Assembly (NCBI RefSeq): GCF_000344805.1
Contig: NC_020453.1
Coordinates: 5,055,001 to 5,119,000 of the forward strand
From: Bradyrhizobium oligotrophicum S58
Lineage (GTDB): Bacteria; Pseudomonadota; Alphaproteobacteria; Rhizobiales; Xanthobacteraceae
DNA: 64,000 nucleotides
Direction: 5' to 3'
This document shows, one piece after another, positions 4,265 to 14,481 of this stretch. Made by a program: the position numbers and the translations under genes. The notes below the pieces were generated by a model. It did no database searches, was not told the DNA's origin, and saw only the letters and a program-made list of their open reading frames with translations. Within the stretch, counting starts at the first letter, position 1. Each line of letters opens with the position of its first letter.

Positions 4265-5776
<1,512 letters not shown>

Positions 5777-6402: not shown

Positions 6403-7890
6403 ATGAACAAGCAACGCATCATTCCGCTGATCGTCGCCACCGCCCTGTTCATGGAGAACATGGATTCCACGGTGATCGCGACTTCGCTGCCGGCGATCGC
6501 CCGGGATATCGGCACCAGTCCGCTGACGCTGAAGCTCGCCATCACCTCGTATCTGCTGTCGCTGGCGGTGTTCATCCCGGCGAGCGGCTGGACCGCCGAC
6601 CGCTTCGGCGCGCGACGGGTGTTCTCGAGCGCGGTCGCCGTGTTCATGATCGGCTCGATCGGCTGCGCACTGGCCAACTCGGTCGAGAACTTCGTATTCG
6701 CGCGCATCCTGCAGGGCATGGGCGGGGCGATGATGACCCCGGTCGGCCGTCTCGTCCTGCTGCGCTCGGTCGACAAAAGCGCGCTGGTCGGGGCCATGGC
6801 CTGGGTCACCATCCCTGCTTTGATCGGCCCGGTGATCGGGCCGCCGGTCGGCGGCTTCATCACCACCTATTTCTCCTGGCACTGGATCTTCCTGATCAAC
6901 ATCCCGATCGGCATCGTCGGCATCATCATGGCGCTGCGCTTCATCGATCCGATCAAGAGCGACAATCCCGAGCCGTTCGATCTCTATGGCATGGTGCTCG
7001 CCGGCATCGGCCTCGCGGGCCTCGCCTTCGGCCTCTCCGTCGCCGGCCTCAATCTGCTGCCATGGTCGGTGGTCGGCAGTCTGGTCGCGATCGGCGCGAT
7101 CTCGATGACGCTCTATGTCCGGCACTCCTGGCGCACCAATTCACCAGTGCTGGATTTCTCGCTGCTGCGGCTGCCGACCCTGCGCGCCTCGATCGTCGGC
7201 GGCTTCATGTTTCGCCTCGGCATCGGCGCGCTGCCGTTTCTGCTGCCGCTGCTGATGCAGATCGGCTTCGGCCTGTCGCCGTTCCAGTCCGGCCTCGTCA
7301 CCTTCGGCTCCTCGGCCGGCGCGATGGGCATGAAGGCGCTGGCCGCACGCCTCATCCGCACCTTCGGCTTCCGCCATCTGATGACCGTGAACGCCGTCGT
7401 CAGCTCGGTCTTCCTCGCCGCCTGCGCGCTGTTCACGCCGGCAACGCCATTGCTGCTGATCCTGATCATCCTGGTCGTCGGCGGCTTCTTCCGCTCGCTG
7501 CAGTTCACCGCGATCAACACCGTCGCCTATGCCGAGGTCGAGACCGCGCAGATGAGCCGCGCCACGACGCTGACCAGCGTCAACCAGCAGCTTGCGATCT
7601 CAGCCGGCGTCGCGGTCGGCGCCTTCTCGGTGGAGACCACGATGTGGATGCACGGCGCGAGCCAGATCAGCGCCTCGTCCTTCGCGCCGGCCTTCATCGT
7701 CGTCGCCATCACCGCGGCACTCTCGTCGATCTTCTTCTGGCAGATGCCGGACGATGCCGGCAGCGAAATCTCCGGCCGCAAGGTCGCCGCGATCGCCAGC
7801 CGCAAGGGCGCCGAGAAGGGCGTCGAGAAGGCCGCCACCAAATCGGCGAGCGAGACCACGCAGGATGCGCGCGATCAGCGGCTGGGGTAG
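6403..7890 (+). CDS. MFS drug:H+ antiporter, DHA2 (14-helix) type
   Basis: A 495-residue transporter expected to export hydrophobic compounds using the proton gradient. Visible signatures are FMENMDSTVIATSLPAIA in helix 1 (DHA2 motif D1), GWTADRFGARRVF between helices 2 and 3 (MFS motif A), and GPVIGPPVGGFIT (motif C-like, typical of exporters). About 13-14 hydrophobic segments fit the EmrB/HsrA group. The C-terminus carries a Lys/Ala-rich tail (KGAEKGVEKAATKSA). No adjacent EmrA-type adaptor or regulator is seen, so it acts alone or with an unlinked partner. Substrate unknown. Confidence 0.88.
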   Translation: MNKQRIIPLIVATALFMENMDSTVIATSLPAIARDIGTSPLTLKLAITSYLLSLAVFIPASGWTADRFGARRVFSSAVAVFMIGSIGCALANSVENFVFARILQGMGGAMMTPVGRLVLLRSVDKSALVGAMAWVTIPALIGPVIGPPVGGFITTYFSWHWIFLINIPIGIVGIIMALRFIDPIKSDNPEPFDLYGMVLAGIGLAGLAFGLSVAGLNLLPWSVVGSLVAIGAISMTLYVRHSWRTNSPVLDFSLLRLPTLRASIVGGFMFRLGIGALPFLLPLLMQIGFGLSPFQSGLVTFGSSAGAMGMKALAARLIRTFGFRHLMTVNAVVSSVFLAACALFTPATPLLLILIILVVGGFFRSLQFTAINTVAYAEVETAQMSRATTLTSVNQQLAISAGVAVGAFSVETTMWMHGASQISASSFAPAFIVVAITAALSSIFFWQMPDDAGSEISGRKVAAIASRKGAEKGVEKAATKSASETTQDARDQRLG

Positions 7891-8116: not shown

Positions 8117-10090
8117 TCACCGCCCGACGAAGCCGCGGCGGGCGAGGCCTGCCAGCGCGCCGCGCAGGCGGGCGCGGCCGGTGATGACACCGCAGGAGGA
8201 GTTGAACAATCTCACCACCAGTTTGCGGCGCTGCGATTCGTCGGGCTGCAGACGGAGGTGAACGGTCTTCCTGAACACGTCGACAACGGATGCGTCGACC
8301 CATCCGAGGCCGTCGAGATGGAGCGTCAGCATGGCCCCCGGCTTCACCGGGCTGCGATCGCGCGGTTTGGCAATCCGAGCCGACGACAGCGACAGCGCCT
8401 CGATCGAACACGGCACCACCTCACCCTCTTGCGCTAGCCACCCCGCCTCATCGCTCGGAAACAGGTCCTCGCCGCGCGGCAGCTCGAAGCACACGAGAAA
8501 TGCGATGAAGGCGATCAGCATCGCGATCCCGGCCCACAGCAGGTTGAAATAGTCTATCGACGAGATCTCGCTCGCGGCGTTCGGCGACACGAAAGCCCAG
8601 ACGATGGCGGCGGCCGAGCTCGCCGCGATCAGGCCGAAGATCGCGGCGAGCTTGCCATGCACGCGCGGCTGCGAGCGGTCGCCCCCCTTGTCGGTCACCT
8701 TGAATGGGCGGCCGAACGGCCTCACGGCGGCGCTCAGCAAGGTCGCCGTGACCGCGAAACACGTCACCGCATGCGTCGCCTCCATGAACAGCGGCAAGGT
8801 GCGCGAGCGCGAGATCCAGCCCATGTAGATGATGGTGCCGAGCAGCGCCGGGACGCCGTAGCGCAGGAACGACAGATAGTCGGCCTCGAACGCCGGCAAG
8901 CCGGCGAACCAGTAGATCGGCGGCGCAATCAGCAAGAGCACCATGAACGGCTTGCAGGCCCAGTTGAGCACGCCGTGGAGGAACTGCCAGCGCTGCGTAA
9001 AGCTGTAGCCGCGGCTGCGCATCGGACCATCGCGCAGCAGCGCGACCTGGATCGTGCCGAGGCACCAGCGGGCGCGCTGGGTTATGTATTCCGGCACGCC
9101 TTCGGCCGAGAGCCCGAAGCTGAGCGGCTCGTTGAGCCAGACGGTGCGATGGCCGCGCTTCAGCAGCGTGTAGGTGAGATTGAGATCCTCGGAGATCGCC
9201 GCATGCGGGAAACCGCCGATCTCCATGAGCCGCTCGCGGCGCACCACGAAGGAGGTGCCGACGCAGAACGCGCAGCCCCAGGCGTCCTTGGCCGGCTGAA
9301 ACACGTCGAAGAAGAAGCGCTGATCATCGACCCAGCTGCCGGACGCCAGCAGATTGTGCTGGATCGGATCGGGATTGTAGTAGAACTGCGGCGTCTGCAC
9401 GACCGCAATGTCGGGCTCCGACAGCAACAGCCCCACGGTGCGCTGCAGGAAGTCGCGGCGCGGCGCGAAATCCGCGTCGAGCACCAGGATCACCTGCGCG
9501 TTGGACTGCTGCGCGGTCGCGGCCAGCGCGTTGTTGAGATTGCCGGCCTTGGCGCCCTTGTTGTCGGGCCGCGTCAGATGGCGCGCGCCGACCTCATCGC
9601 AGAAGGCTCGAAGCCGGTCGCGCCTTGTGTCGTCGAGCACCCACACGGTCTTGTCGGGGTAGTCGAGCGCGAGCGCCGCCAGGATCGAGCGCTCGACGAT
9701 CTCCATCGGCTCGTCATAGGTGCAGATGAAGACATCGACGGCGGGATGGTTTCCGCCCAGCCTGCGATGCGCCTCGTCAGCCTGCGCCGAGCGGTCGACG
9801 CTGCGGGTCAGGATCAGGATCGACATCAGCGTGTAGGAGATTGCGATGATCTCGAGCGTGATGAACAGCCGCGGCCACAACGCCTGCAAGCTCAGATCGA
9901 ACGGCGGCAGCGTGTCGTGCCAGCGCCACAGCGTGTAGATCAGGAGGAAGGACGCGGCGGTCGCTCCGAACAGCACGCGGTCACGCGTCCGCGACGGATC
10001 GAGCAGCCGCGCCATCACCAGAAGCCCGAGCAGGACGCCGAGATCGGTCGACAGCACCGACGCATCGTTGCTTGCGGTCGGGAACATCAT
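8117..10090 (-). CDS. GT2 beta-glucan synthase, BgsA/BcsA-like, with atypical PilZ-like tail
   Basis: A 657-residue processive glycosyltransferase that should polymerise a beta-glucan at the inner membrane. The four hallmark motifs are present: LDDTRR (152-157), DAD (205-207), SED (300-302, replacing TED) and QRARW (338-342). They are flanked by N-terminal helices and by about six C-terminal ones. The last ~100 residues look like a PilZ barrel, ending DESQRRKLVVRLF, but lack RxxxR, and the DxSxxG position reads LSLSSAR. S. meliloti BgsA (about the same length) also binds c-di-GMP through a non-standard tail, so a BgsA-like enzyme is my preferred reading over cellulose synthase; no BcsB is adjacent. 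Its ATG overlaps the stop of the upstream hydrolase-like gene (ATGA). Confidence 0.85.
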   Translation of the reverse strand: MMFPTASNDASVLSTDLGVLLGLLVMARLLDPSRTRDRVLFGATAASFLLIYTLWRWHDTLPPFDLSLQALWPRLFITLEIIAISYTLMSILILTRSVDRSAQADEAHRRLGGNHPAVDVFICTYDEPMEIVERSILAALALDYPDKTVWVLDDTRRDRLRAFCDEVGARHLTRPDNKGAKAGNLNNALAATAQQSNAQVILVLDADFAPRRDFLQRTVGLLLSEPDIAVVQTPQFYYNPDPIQHNLLASGSWVDDQRFFFDVFQPAKDAWGCAFCVGTSFVVRRERLMEIGGFPHAAISEDLNLTYTLLKRGHRTVWLNEPLSFGLSAEGVPEYITQRARWCLGTIQVALLRDGPMRSRGYSFTQRWQFLHGVLNWACKPFMVLLLIAPPIYWFAGLPAFEADYLSFLRYGVPALLGTIIYMGWISRSRTLPLFMEATHAVTCFAVTATLLSAAVRPFGRPFKVTDKGGDRSQPRVHGKLAAIFGLIAASSAAAIVWAFVSPNAASEISSIDYFNLLWAGIAMLIAFIAFLVCFELPRGEDLFPSDEAGWLAQEGEVVPCSIEALSLSSARIAKPRDRSPVKPGAMLTLHLDGLGWVDASVVDVFRKTVHLRLQPDESQRRKLVVRLFNSSCGVITGRARLRGALAGLARRGFVGR

Positions 10091-11304
10091 GGCACCCTCG
10101 CGCCGGTGAAGGGATTCCAGCCGGCCTCGGCGAGGACGGCCCAGGCGGTGGCGCCGAGATGCGGACGCTTGTAGTAGAAGAAGTCCGGAATGGTGGTCTG
10201 CCCGCTCGGATCGATCGACAGGCCGGTGGTCAAACGTGCGCTGCGCGTCGCATTCAAGAGCCCCGAGGCGGTGCGGTCGGCCCGCATGCCGGCGAGCAGC
10301 CGCTGGCCGTCGGCGGGATCACCGACCATCCGATAGGCGAGCGCCGCCTGTGCGGTGCCCTCGACCCAGACGCCGTCGCGATCGCCGTTGAAGTCGAAGC
10401 CGCCATCGACCGCGAGGTGCGTCCCGGCAAAGGTCAGCGCCTTGCGCCACGCCGGCGCATCCGCCACCGCCATCCACGGCCACAGCTGCACGTCGAGCGC
10501 GAGCAGATTGTCGTCGGCGAGACTGCCATCCGGCTTGGTGCCGAGCAGGAAGTGATCGCCGCGGAAGCTGCGGTCGAGCAGACGGCGGGCCTTTTGCGCG
10601 GCGTCCTGATAGCGCGGCTCCGAGGTGATGCGAAACAGCCAGCTGGCCACCGCGTGGACGTCGGCATTGTGCTCGGTCGACATCCAGGTCAGCCGTATCT
10701 GCTGCGGATCGTAGCCGTGAAAGCCGCCGCTGAAGCCGTCGGCGCCACTGCTCGCGTTGCTGATGATCCAGTCCATCAGGCGCCGTGCGGCAGACAAATA
10801 GGTCGCCTCCCCGGTCGCCTGATGCAGGGTCAGGAGCGCCAGCGCCCCCCAGGCCACGTTGCCGGTCGAGGTGCCGTCCTGCGCGGCATCCTCGCCCCAG
10901 ATGTTCTTCTGGCCGTCCCACCAGCCCGGCAGCAGCGCGGCGCCGGCGCCGACCGGACCAGCGCGATAGGCGTTGCGGAGCCGGCCGTCGTCGAAGGTGC
11001 GATCGTGGGACGCGGCGTGCACCAGCGCATTGCCGATCGCCCGCGCCTGATCGACGCGGTCGCACGCGACCAGCGCGATCGCGGCCAGCGCGTTGTCGTA
11101 GACGAAGGCCGTCGTGGACAGGCCGAGCGGCAGCCCCTCCTCGTCGGCACCGGGCTCGTAACTGCGGATGAACATCGCATCATGGCCCGCGAGCTTGGGC
11201 CCGACGGCCTTCATCAGGCCGGGGCAGAACGAGCCCTCGGCACGCGCAGGCAGCGCGCCGCCGAACAGCGCCATAGCCACCATCACCATGGATATGAGCC
11301 TCAT
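10087..11304 (-). CDS. Secreted glycoside hydrolase-like protein (alpha/alpha toroid type)
   Basis: A 405-residue protein with a cleavable signal peptide (about 1-23, ending LPARA). The body is built of repeating helical segments such as FVYDNALAAIALVA, STGNVAWGALALL and STEHNADVHAVASWLF, a pattern typical of six-hairpin (alpha/alpha) glycosidases and lyases. The conserved YDNA, NAYR and STEHN clusters could be active-site acids, but I cannot place it in a numbered GH family. Start at 11304 gives the signal peptide and an ATGA overlap with the upstream fusion-protein gene; the 3' end overlaps the synthase by 4 nt. Position in the operon implies trimming or releasing the nascent glucan in the periplasm. 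Confidence 0.65.
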   Translation of the reverse strand: MRLISMVMVAMALFGGALPARAEGSFCPGLMKAVGPKLAGHDAMFIRSYEPGADEEGLPLGLSTTAFVYDNALAAIALVACDRVDQARAIGNALVHAASHDRTFDDGRLRNAYRAGPVGAGAALLPGWWDGQKNIWGEDAAQDGTSTGNVAWGALALLTLHQATGEATYLSAARRLMDWIISNASSGADGFSGGFHGYDPQQIRLTWMSTEHNADVHAVASWLFRITSEPRYQDAAQKARRLLDRSFRGDHFLLGTKPDGSLADDNLLALDVQLWPWMAVADAPAWRKALTFAGTHLAVDGGFDFNGDRDGVWVEGTAQAALAYRMVGDPADGQRLLAGMRADRTASGLLNATRSARLTTGLSIDPSGQTTIPDFFYYKRPHLGATAWAVLAEAGWNPFTGARVP

Positions 11305-12782
11305 TGCGCCGACACCGCGCGAGCTGCCGGCAGCCAGTGCTCGTCCAGTTCCGGCTGCTGTACCAATGCCGGCTGCGATCGCAGGGCGTCGTCGAGCTTG
11401 GTGACGCCGGCACGGCGCGTCGCCGCGTCGGGCTCGGATGGATCGAGATCGGTGAGCGACGCAACGAGGTGGCCGAGCCGCCGCCACGTCACCGACATCG
11501 ACGGAATGACGCCGTTGTCACGCGTGACCGTGACCCACTGTCCCACCGTGCAGGCGGGCGTCGCCGCCGAGGCCAGCGCCACTGCCGCCTGCTCAGCGGG
11601 CGCATCCGGCGTGATCATGACATAGAGCTCGCGCCGCTCGGTCTGCGGAAACGGCACGGCGAAGCGCTCGTCGACCTTGTCGCTGGTCTTCGGCAGCACC
11701 GCGCTGACGACGCCGGCGTGAAAGCCGCCGCCGTCGATACGCACCTTGGTCCCCGGCTTCATCTGTTCGCCCTGGCGATAGGAGAAGATCGCGACCACGA
11801 AGCGCTTGTCGCAGTCGACCACAGAGGCAATCGTGTCACCGGCGCTGACGTGGCGACCGGTCTCGGCGCCGACGGCCAGCACCTTGCCGGGCCCCGGCGA
11901 GAGCACGTCGGCCGAGGCGAGCCGCGCCAGCCGGGCGCGCTCGGACTTGATCAACCCTTCGAGATCGTCGAGCACCGCCGATTGCTGCTTCTCCTCGATC
12001 TCCATCCGCCTTGCGTCGAGATCGATGTCGCGGCGCTTCTGATTGAGCATGTTGAGCGCGACGAGGTCCTCGCCGACATAGATGCCGGCGTTCAAAGCCT
12101 TCAGCTGCGCCAGCTTCTGGTTCAGCCTGGCGTTCTGCGCATCGGTGTCGTGCAGCGCCGCCGCATATTGCTGCTCGGTCGGCTTCAGCATCTCGACGCT
12201 GGCGGCATCGCGCGCCACCATGCGGTTCTGCCGGTCGACGATCGCCTTCTTCTCGCTGCTCATCGCGTTGGACTGCGCGACGCGGGCGCGCAGCTCCTCG
12301 ATCTGCGACTGCAGCTGCGCCTTGAGCTGCCCGGCCTGGCCGCCGATTTCCTCGTCGAGCGAGCTGACATACGCAATGTCGGACTGATGCTTGGCCCGGG
12401 TGGCATCGAGCTTCTGGCGCGCGTCGCCGGCCTTCTCCTCCAGCGAGATCAGCGTGGTGCGGTCGAGCCGCGAATTGCTGATCTGCGCCAGCCGATCGCT
12501 GCTGCGAACCTCGCCGCCGGGCGTGGCGGTGAGCGTCTCGACCTGGCCCGCGATCGGCGAGGTCAGCAGCATCACGGGCGCATCGACCACGGCGCGATCC
12601 GACTGGTCGGCCACGATCGGCGGCACCACGGCCGTCAGCATCAGCGCCGACAGGATGCCGGCGACGCCGATGGCGGAGACGCGGAGGATCACGGGATGGC
12701 GATGCCGGCGCACCGCGGGTTTCTCGGGTGCGGAACGTGGCGCGGGCGATGGCTTGAAACCGGCATCGAAGCGATCGGTCAT
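11301..12782 (-). CDS. HlyD-family membrane fusion protein, BgsB-like
   Basis: A 493-residue periplasmic adaptor with a short cytosolic N-terminus, one transmembrane helix (about 33-58) and a lipoyl/barrel half-motif (SPIAGQVETLTATPGGEV). A long coiled coil follows at about 105-285, then a second barrel half (SPGPGKVLAVGAETGRHVSAGD). It carries the architecture of HlyD/EmrA proteins but no ABC exporter or outer-membrane factor is nearby. Instead it is the first gene of a three-gene operon with a hydrolase-like protein and a GT2 synthase. In S. meliloti the HlyD-like BgsB plays the corresponding role for mixed-linkage glucan, so I infer it guides the polymer across the periplasm. The tail after residue 400 is variable. 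Confidence 0.82.
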   Translation of the reverse strand: MTDRFDAGFKPSPAPRSAPEKPAVRRHRHPVILRVSAIGVAGILSALMLTAVVPPIVADQSDRAVVDAPVMLLTSPIAGQVETLTATPGGEVRSSDRLAQISNSRLDRTTLISLEEKAGDARQKLDATRAKHQSDIAYVSSLDEEIGGQAGQLKAQLQSQIEELRARVAQSNAMSSEKKAIVDRQNRMVARDAASVEMLKPTEQQYAAALHDTDAQNARLNQKLAQLKALNAGIYVGEDLVALNMLNQKRRDIDLDARRMEIEEKQQSAVLDDLEGLIKSERARLARLASADVLSPGPGKVLAVGAETGRHVSAGDTIASVVDCDKRFVVAIFSYRQGEQMKPGTKVRIDGGGFHAGVVSAVLPKTSDKVDERFAVPFPQTERRELYVMITPDAPAEQAAVALASAATPACTVGQWVTVTRDNGVIPSMSVTWRRLGHLVASLTDLDPSEPDAATRRAGVTKLDDALRSQPALVQQPELDEHWLPAARAVSAQ

Positions 12783-12981
12783 CGGGTCTCTTTCGGTGTG
12801 GGTTGACGCCCCCGAAAGACGCTTCCTCGGATGATCCGGAGTTCCAGGCTCCAGTCTCGATGTTCAAGCGCAAACCACGTCGCGCGCACATCGTTTCAAG
12901 CCGAGGCCGATCTTCGCCCCTTCCTCGCGGTCACGTTATGTTGCGATGCGGCAGCGCCGTTTTCGCGCTTGCCTGCCACAC

Positions 12982-14481
12982 TCAATCCTCATTCGCCTTG
13001 AAGCGACCGAGTCCCTTCAGGATGAACGGCGCGATCAGCGCAATCAGCGCGATGACCAGCAGCGTCGCTGAGATCGGAGATTGCAGCAAGGTCATGGGAT
13101 CGCCGAGACTGATGGCGAGCGCGCGCCGCAACTGGCTCTCGGCGATCGGTCCGAGGATCAGTCCGACAACGACCGGCGCAATCGGAAAATCGAACCGGCG
13201 CATCAGGAAGCCGAGCACGCCGAAGCCCGCGAGCATCGACAATTCGACCACCGACGGCTTCGCCGCGATCGTGCCCATGGTCGCGAACACGAGGATGCCG
13301 GCGTAGAGCCAGGGCGTCGGGATGGCGAGCAGCTTCACCCACAGTCCGACCAGCGGCAGATTCAGCACCAGCAGCATGGTGTTGGCGATGAACAGGCTCG
13401 CGATCAGGCCCCAGACCAGGTCTGGGCGTTCGGCGAACAATAGCGGTCCCGGGTTGAGGCCATATTGCTGGAAGCCGGCGAGCATCATCGCGGCGGTCGC
13501 AGACGTCGGCAGGCCGAGCGTCAATAACGGCACCAGCGTTCCGGCCGCAGACGCGTTGTTCGCAGCCTCGGGCCCGGCGACGCCCTCGATCGCGCCCTTG
13601 CCGAATTGGTCCGGATATTTGGTCAGCCGCCGCTCGGCCGAATAGGACAGGAAGGTTGGAATCTCGGCGCCGCCGGCCGGCAGCGCGCCGATCGGAAAGC
13701 CGAATAGCGTGCCGCGCAGCCACGGCTTCCACGAGCGCTTCCAGTCCTCGCGCGTCATCCATAGCGAGCCCTTGATGGCCTCGATCTTCTCCTCGCTGTG
13801 ATGCCGGCGCGAGGCGACATAGAGCGCCTCGCCGACCGCGAACAGGCCGACCGCCAAGGTCGTCACCTCGACGCCGTCGAGCAGCTCGGGCACGCCGAAG
13901 GCGAGCCGCGCCTGCCCCGTGAGCTTGTCGATGCCGATCAGCCCAAGCGTCAGCCCGATGAACAGGCTCGTGAGCCCGCGGATCGGCGAGTCGCCGAAGG
14001 TCGCGGACACCGTGACGAAGGCGACACACATCAGCGCAAAGTAGTCCTCCGGTCCGAAGCGCACGGCGATGTCGACGAGATACGGCGACAGGAACGCCAG
14101 CCCGATGGTGGCGATGGTGCCGGCAACGAAGGAGCCGATCGCCGAGGTCGCCAGCGCCGGGCCGCCGCGGCCGGCCTTGGCCATCTTGTTGCCTTCGAGC
14201 GCGGTCGCCATCGAGGCGCTCTCGCCGGGCGTGTTGATCAGGATCGCGGTGGTCGATCCGCCATACATGCCGCCGTAATAGATGCCGGCGAACATGATCA
14301 GCGAGCCGCCGGGATCGAGCTTGTAGGTGACCGGCAGCAGCAGCGCGACGGTGAGCGCGGGACCGATGCCGGGCAGCACGCCGACGGCGGTGCCGAGGAA
14401 CACGCCGATCAGCGCATAGAGCAGGTTCATGGGCTGGACGGCGATCGCCATCCCATGCGCGAGCGCGGCGAAGGTGTCCAT
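12982..14481 (-). CDS. tctA: Tripartite tricarboxylate transporter large permease
   Basis: A 499-residue, roughly 12-helix permease of the TctA family. Clear family features: [22 protein letters not shown] near the N-terminus, the [20 protein letters not shown] loop (about 68-87), and the repeat-equivalent [23 protein letters not shown] near 315-337. It works with the small permease TctB and a periplasmic receptor to import organic acids by secondary transport. Its ATG shares one base with the TctB stop (TGATG), so the three genes are translationally coupled in order receptor, TctB, TctA. The substrate, citrate or another carboxylate, cannot be told from sequence. Confidence 0.93.

Follow-up and report, generated by a model that had tools for sequence, protein, structure and literature searches.

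In the bcs cellulose operon the synthase is accompanied by a periplasmic hydrolase, BcsZ, for which alginate systems offer an analogy in AlgL. More closely related to the genes described here are the curdlan (crd) operon of Agrobacterium, in which AGRO_1847-1849 are crdA, crdS (the beta-1,3-glucan synthase catalytic subunit) and crdC (PMC3293034), and the bgsBA locus of Sinorhizobium meliloti, where tail residues R599 and H615 of the synthase BgsA bind cyclic di-GMP (c-di-GMP; PMC5567048). Curdlan forms a capsule that drives aggregation in Agrobacterium (PMC10819609), CrdC has been published as a protein of unknown function, and the CrdS tail has been published as being without PilZ motifs. 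Here we describe a three-gene locus within a 64,000-nucleotide stretch of the Bradyrhizobium oligotrophicum S58 genome (NC_020453.1, positions 5,055,001 to 5,119,000; the window), encoding an HlyD-type membrane-fusion protein, a middle protein and a glycosyltransferase family 2 (GT2) synthase. On sequence comparison the curdlan genes of Agrobacterium are the nearest counterparts of all three, the fusion protein corresponding to CrdA, the middle protein to CrdC and the GT2 enzyme to CrdS; the locus is a known curdlan operon occurring in another host group. Taken as a whole, it is likely a crd operon with the order crdA-crdC-crdS, making linear beta-1,3-glucan, with CrdC as a trimming or releasing enzyme and a degenerate PilZ domain as the synthase tail.

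Identity of the operon

The window synthase scored 605 bits against Agrobacterium CrdS (48% identity) versus 369 bits against S. meliloti BgsA (37%), and the fusion protein 172 bits against CrdA (32%) versus 70 bits against BgsB (25%). The middle protein matched Agrobacterium CrdC at 43% identity (274 bits), and no CrdC counterpart was found at the S. meliloti (L031) or L050 loci. Among plasmid records, synthase identity was 67% for Nitrobacter, approximately 50% for Agrobacterium plasmids and approximately 37% for S. meliloti pSymB. The CrdA-like protein, with one hydrophobic segment at residues ~35-53, carries the signatures FVVAIFSxR and AVPFPxTERRELY, which are common to Agrobacterium and Phyllobacterium CrdA and absent from five BgsB-type proteins.

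As a reference we used Agrobacterium H13-3 (L029), where homologues of the two other genes lie on either side of the synthase gene (order A-S-C). We took this locus as a crd operon because the ATCC 31749 crdA and crdC primer pairs (PMC4327974) were located in it with 395 and 248 bp spacing, and because its positions 5638 and 5841 match the crdS primers of PMC3293034 with 4/21 and 5/20 mismatches. Of the four primer pairs from PMC4327974, the 395-bp crdA pair and q-crdC fit this locus while q-crdA and q-crdS do not; the q-crdS primers match no frame of sequence P0124 either. Compared with Agrobacterium crdASC (ATCC 31749; C58 Atu3057-Atu3055), all three window proteins are homologous (synthase 48-53%, CrdC ~43%, CrdA 32%) and the signature residues of the synthase and the CrdA signatures are shared, whereas the genes overlap by ATGA in the order A-C-S, as against A-S-C in Agrobacterium, and Trp422 of the synthase is replaced. 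Among the literature matches listed, from a search that left most subscription papers outside its reach, there was no report of a Bradyrhizobium crd operon or of CrdC as an enzyme, although the 242-sequence tree of PMC6821405 may include Bradyrhizobium members.

Placement of the synthase and its glucan-contact residues

In a tree of 41 rows, the window synthase fell within a 31-row CrdS group with support of 100/100, and BgsA of S. meliloti and Rhizobium phaseoli, a second HlyD-linked group (L050, L093, L096) and BcsA all lay outside it. Long-branch warnings applied to several deeper joins, including the one that connects the L050 and CrdS groups, but not to the branch defining the CrdS group. 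For residue comparisons, alignment numbering was controlled with published positions: all seven AtumCrdS residues from PMC6821405 (in P0124) and all eight BgsA residues from PMC5567048 (in L031) fell at their published numbers. AtumCrdS residues Q237, K270, H374, W422 and H442 touch beta-1,3-glucan in simulations (PMC6821405). At these five positions the window synthase has Q K H I H, sharing four with the Q K H W H of CrdS; S. meliloti BgsA has Q R P F G, and E. coli BcsA has H N N S E. The Q, K, H and H are identical in all 31 rows of the CrdS clade, and Trp422 is replaced by I, V, M or T in every Nitrobacteraceae row (21/21), with W in nine of the other ten clade rows and Y in one.

These data bear directly on the sequence-only reading of the locus, which proposed a counterpart of BgsBA: an operon for a mixed-linkage (1,3;1,4) beta-glucan, with a synthase tail through which c-di-GMP activates it, to which a hydrolase gene had been added. 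Both loci do combine an HlyD-type partner with a GT2 synthase and no BcsB, the equivalent of Gln237 is common to both, and CrdS and BgsA-type rows stand together apart from BcsA in the tree. We nevertheless regard the BgsBA identity as very unlikely, given the weaker scores to BgsA and BgsB, the separation of the window synthase from the two groups of BgsA-type rows in the tree, the R, P and G of S. meliloti BgsA where the window has K, H and H, and a tail in which R599 of BgsA is replaced by Lys and R605 and D608 have no counterpart. Moreover, bgsBA is a two-gene locus without crdC, and a CrdC match longer than 150 aa was found in none of ten BgsA-type Bradyrhizobium loci fetched (6.8-9.5 kb each); the middle gene is no addition, being a standard crd member. 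The polymer class then suggested was well chosen, and a BcsB-less beta-glucan synthase operon with an HlyD-type partner and a glycosidase-fold middle protein stands, without the BgsBA identity.

A cellulose synthase operon is still less credible, to the point of being nearly negligible. The synthase does score 352 bits against the TIGR03030 CelA model, and it bears the database label 'cellulose synthase catalytic subunit', yet that score is half the curated cut-off of 699, a BcsA-type residue occurs at none of the five linkage positions, and BcsA lies outside the CrdS group. The complete genome contains no match to BcsB (PF03170), which was detected in the E. coli control, bearing out the earlier view of an operon without this subunit, and its single other synthase match at E 1e-5 is distant (30% over residues 17-399). 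We dropped the cellulose synthase identity on the cut-off, the missing BcsB, the contact residues and the tree. The bcs operon with BcsZ resembles the locus in combining a synthase with an exported glycan protein and in the PilZ-like fold of the tail, but differs from it in BcsB, in the PilZ ligand motifs, which are lost here, and in CrdC, for which Pfam gives no GH8 match at E 1.

Loss of Trp422 might alternatively mark a divergent Nitrobacteraceae crd operon with a product unlike curdlan (another linkage, another length, or a trimmed oligosaccharide), and a gene order unlike that of Agrobacterium would fit. This seems unlikely to us, as the channel entry keeps all four of the contact residues near it, Trp422 itself is located away from that entry (PMC6821405), and Phyllobacterium combines the A-C-S order with Trp.

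Distribution of the operon and of crdC without crdS

Protein database searches covered the best 120 matches each, and the counts for Bradyrhizobium are lower bounds, since at most four candidates per genome were scored for the synthase and up to seven for CrdC. At least 27 of 265 genomes of the genus encode a synthase at or above 64% identity, followed by matches that reach no more than 41%, and in all 27 (L034 and L035 included) crdA, crdC and crdS adjoin. Among 20 loci fetched with crdC, 19 have the order A-C-S and one (L027) has C only; the three-gene unit is therefore not a chance arrangement. Phyllobacterium also has the A-C-S order. CrdC matches at E 1e-3 occur in at least 77 of the 265 genomes, five of them marginal.

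ORS 278 (L114) and G232 (L115) have a solitary crdC at this site, with tctA on one side and the MFS gene on the other, and no remnant of crdA or crdS was found there at E 10 except a 22-residue match (E 3.8). The ORS 278 gene groups with six operonic crdC copies (100/99). Loss of crdA and crdS with retention of crdC would be the simplest account of this sequence grouping, but is not firmly supported, because the two nesting forks reach only 89/76 and 92/94. Pairwise ratios of nonsynonymous to synonymous substitution rates (dN/dS) between ORS 278 crdC and four operonic copies were 0.17-0.20, compared with 0.17-0.22 among those four, although the ORS 278 values include the time before the loss. 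The G232 gene groups with a second crdC lying in front of the complete operon in SSBR45G. Second, diverged crdC copies lie closely upstream of complete crd operons at L011 (3031-4248) and in G367 (C4:122846-124051). In Azospirillum thermophilum, a crdC homologue (L048, 5884-7104) is flanked by a DoxX gene and Ni/Fe-hydrogenase genes, with no synthase in the fetched stretch. No genomic context common to solo crdC genes was seen: Azospirillum has the annotated hydrogenase genes, and other neighbours, judged by eye on their translations, looked transport-like or polysaccharide-like.

CrdC as a candidate enzyme

Structure prediction for CrdC gave an (alpha/alpha)6 toroid with a confidence (pLDDT) of 92.7, agreeing with the earlier description of the middle protein as an alpha/alpha-toroid with a glycosidase fold. 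The model is most similar to dextran dextrinase and MmpH-type hydrolases; identity to these is 10-15%, and CrdC differs from them in being operon-linked and probably periplasmic. No Pfam family matched above its cut-off, there was no NCBIfam match and no GH8 in Pfam at E 1; sub-threshold Pfam scores were 17.5 bits for GH127, 12.1 for GH88 and 12.3 for GH76 (cut-offs 24.9, 26.6 and 25.9). Comparison of the CrdC profile with solved structures likewise gave weak matches, the best being an endo-beta-1,2-glucanase (E 0.048). Thirteen polar pocket-side residues (D70, R108, R110, E138, Q142, E211, N213, D215, D271, D310, E315, Q319 and Y377) do not vary across the 40 homologues compared, ten of them without crdS in the fetched flanks, and the invariant acids were assigned to helices and loops of the predicted model. 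As for the signal peptide noted earlier, a hydrophobic N-terminus (residues 1-19) speaks for it and is its sole support. With this predicted fold and pocket, CrdC looks like a sugar-polymer-cutting enzyme.

Insertions in crdC abolish curdlan in Agrobacterium rather than raising it (PMC10819609), as would be expected for a structural part, and this weighs against an enzyme and for a synthase subunit. CrdC could then be a glucan-binding scaffold of the synthase complex with no enzymatic role, which we think improbable in view of the invariant pocket residues, shared by homologues lacking a nearby crdS. The solo crdC of ORS 278 also argues for an enzyme over a mere synthase subunit, since it is conserved and constrained like the operonic copies.

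Several database entries of the crdC family among the best 120 (P0004, P0054, P0248, P0259 and others) are named 'Methylaspartate ammonia-lyase', a name that found no support here. A link of crdC to defence systems was considered and dropped, there being no PADLOC match.

The C-terminal tail of CrdS

The tail of the window synthase lacks the PilZ motifs RxxxR and (D/N)xSxxG on reading the sequence. Its predicted fold suggests that it is probably a degenerate PilZ domain from which the known c-di-GMP motifs have been lost; direct activation of the PilZ type is therefore unlikely. The c-di-GMP residue R599 of BgsA corresponds to Lys in the window, R605 and D608 fall in a gap, and H615 aligns with a window His beside a long gap, a position at which the nine other CrdS-clade rows in the alignment all lack His.

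Evidence for a PilZ domain comes mainly from fold prediction, as the profile comparisons gave mixed results. Profiles of CrdS tails showed no link to those of BcsA tails (hhalign probability 1.6% with the window group and 7.2% with rhizobial CrdS). Seven Bradyrhizobium tails, chosen for having both PilZ motifs, gave 88.7% in alignment with window-group tails, a value that fell to 52.2% with the tails of rhizobial CrdS and to 20.4% with methylobacterial tails. One of the five tail models had a pLDDT of 44.9, some of the top structure matches were full-length BcsA entries aligned past PilZ, and the PilZ identity of the top matches 4q63 and 2l1t is unconfirmed.

Separately, we observed Bradyrhizobium pairs of HlyD and GT2 genes in which the synthase tail keeps both PilZ motifs (L050 3580-6875, L104-L108 and L112). 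These differ from S. meliloti BgsA, and the B. elkanii pair lies on a plasmid among insertion sequences.

Gene layout and upstream region

The features of the locus are collected in Table 1. Open reading frames and junction letters bore out the order proposed earlier, with two ATGA overlaps: tcat on the plus strand at 11301-11304 and 10087-10090 reads as ATGA on the coding strand. The longest frame for the middle gene begins further upstream, at 11487. Equally sound was the description of a GT2 synthase with four synthase motifs and an HlyD-type partner, as the third protein matches GT2 families in Pfam and carries DDT, DAD, SED, QRARW and FKVTDK, and the first matches HlyD_3 (E 6e-12). The same-strand upstream neighbour, ending at 12982, is presumably a tctCBA-type set, and we take the opposite-strand gene downstream (6403-7890) to be of MFS type, both being named from their sequences.

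Table 1. Positions of the crd genes and associated features in the window
Feature	Position	Strand	Description
crdA-like gene	11301..12782	minus	493 aa, HlyD-type membrane-fusion protein
crdC-like gene	10087..11304	minus	405 aa from internal ATG, candidate glycoside hydrolase, probably exported
crdS-like gene	8117..10090	minus	657 aa, GT2 beta-glucan synthase
Synthase C-terminal tail (residues 534-657)	8120..8491	minus	predicted PilZ-like six-stranded barrel plus helices
Intergenic tctA-crdA region	12783..12981	minus	presumed operon promoter; conserved across six aligned Bradyrhizobium sequences
Inverted repeat directly before crdA start	12789..12819	minus	could cover ribosome-binding site; a lead, fold z-score -0.98

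The arms of the inverted repeat are GTCTTTCGG/CCGAAAGAGAC in six close relatives and GCTCTTTCGG/CCGAGAGAGAGC in several others, and with these paired variants they seem to covary; by eye, the repeat is absent upstream of crdA in L020, L022, L024-L026 and L029. A GGAAC on the minus strand at 12841-12845, kept in six of six aligned sequences, could be a -35 element.

Proposed mechanism and implications

In the crd operon as we read it, CrdS in the inner membrane would polymerise UDP-glucose into linear beta-1,3-glucan and pass it through its own channel. CrdA, judging from its family, would guide the chain across the periplasm, where an outer-membrane channel encoded elsewhere would probably receive it, and exported CrdC, by analogy with BcsZ and AlgL, may act on nascent or stray periplasmic glucan, trimming or releasing chains. 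The product would probably be a capsule-like surface glucan that promotes aggregation.

A bolder proposal, which we offer tentatively and hold to be somewhat less probable than its being wrong, is that CrdC is the founding member of a new family of glycoside hydrolases, acting as a periplasmic beta-1,3-glucan cutter needed by the curdlan synthase but also working without it, and that the worn-out PilZ domain of CrdS keeps its fold with c-di-GMP lost. Activity without the synthase is suggested by the pocket conserved in synthase-free places and by the solo copy in ORS 278. If the tail does keep the PilZ fold without c-di-GMP, curdlan synthases would derive from a c-di-GMP-gated ancestor and have come under other control later.

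The interest of the locus beyond that of a known operon lies in what it shows about CrdC and the tail of CrdS. The PilZ-like tail touches the question, posed in PMC5567048 and PMC9495663, of how c-di-GMP affects curdlan. For CrdC there is now a confidently predicted fold with a defined pocket, the genomes that have crdC without crdS offer a natural experiment, and because the middle gene looks like a sugar-polymer-cutting enzyme, the question of its role becomes directly testable. For Bradyrhizobium, a likely beta-1,3-glucan joins the surface polymers of the genus.
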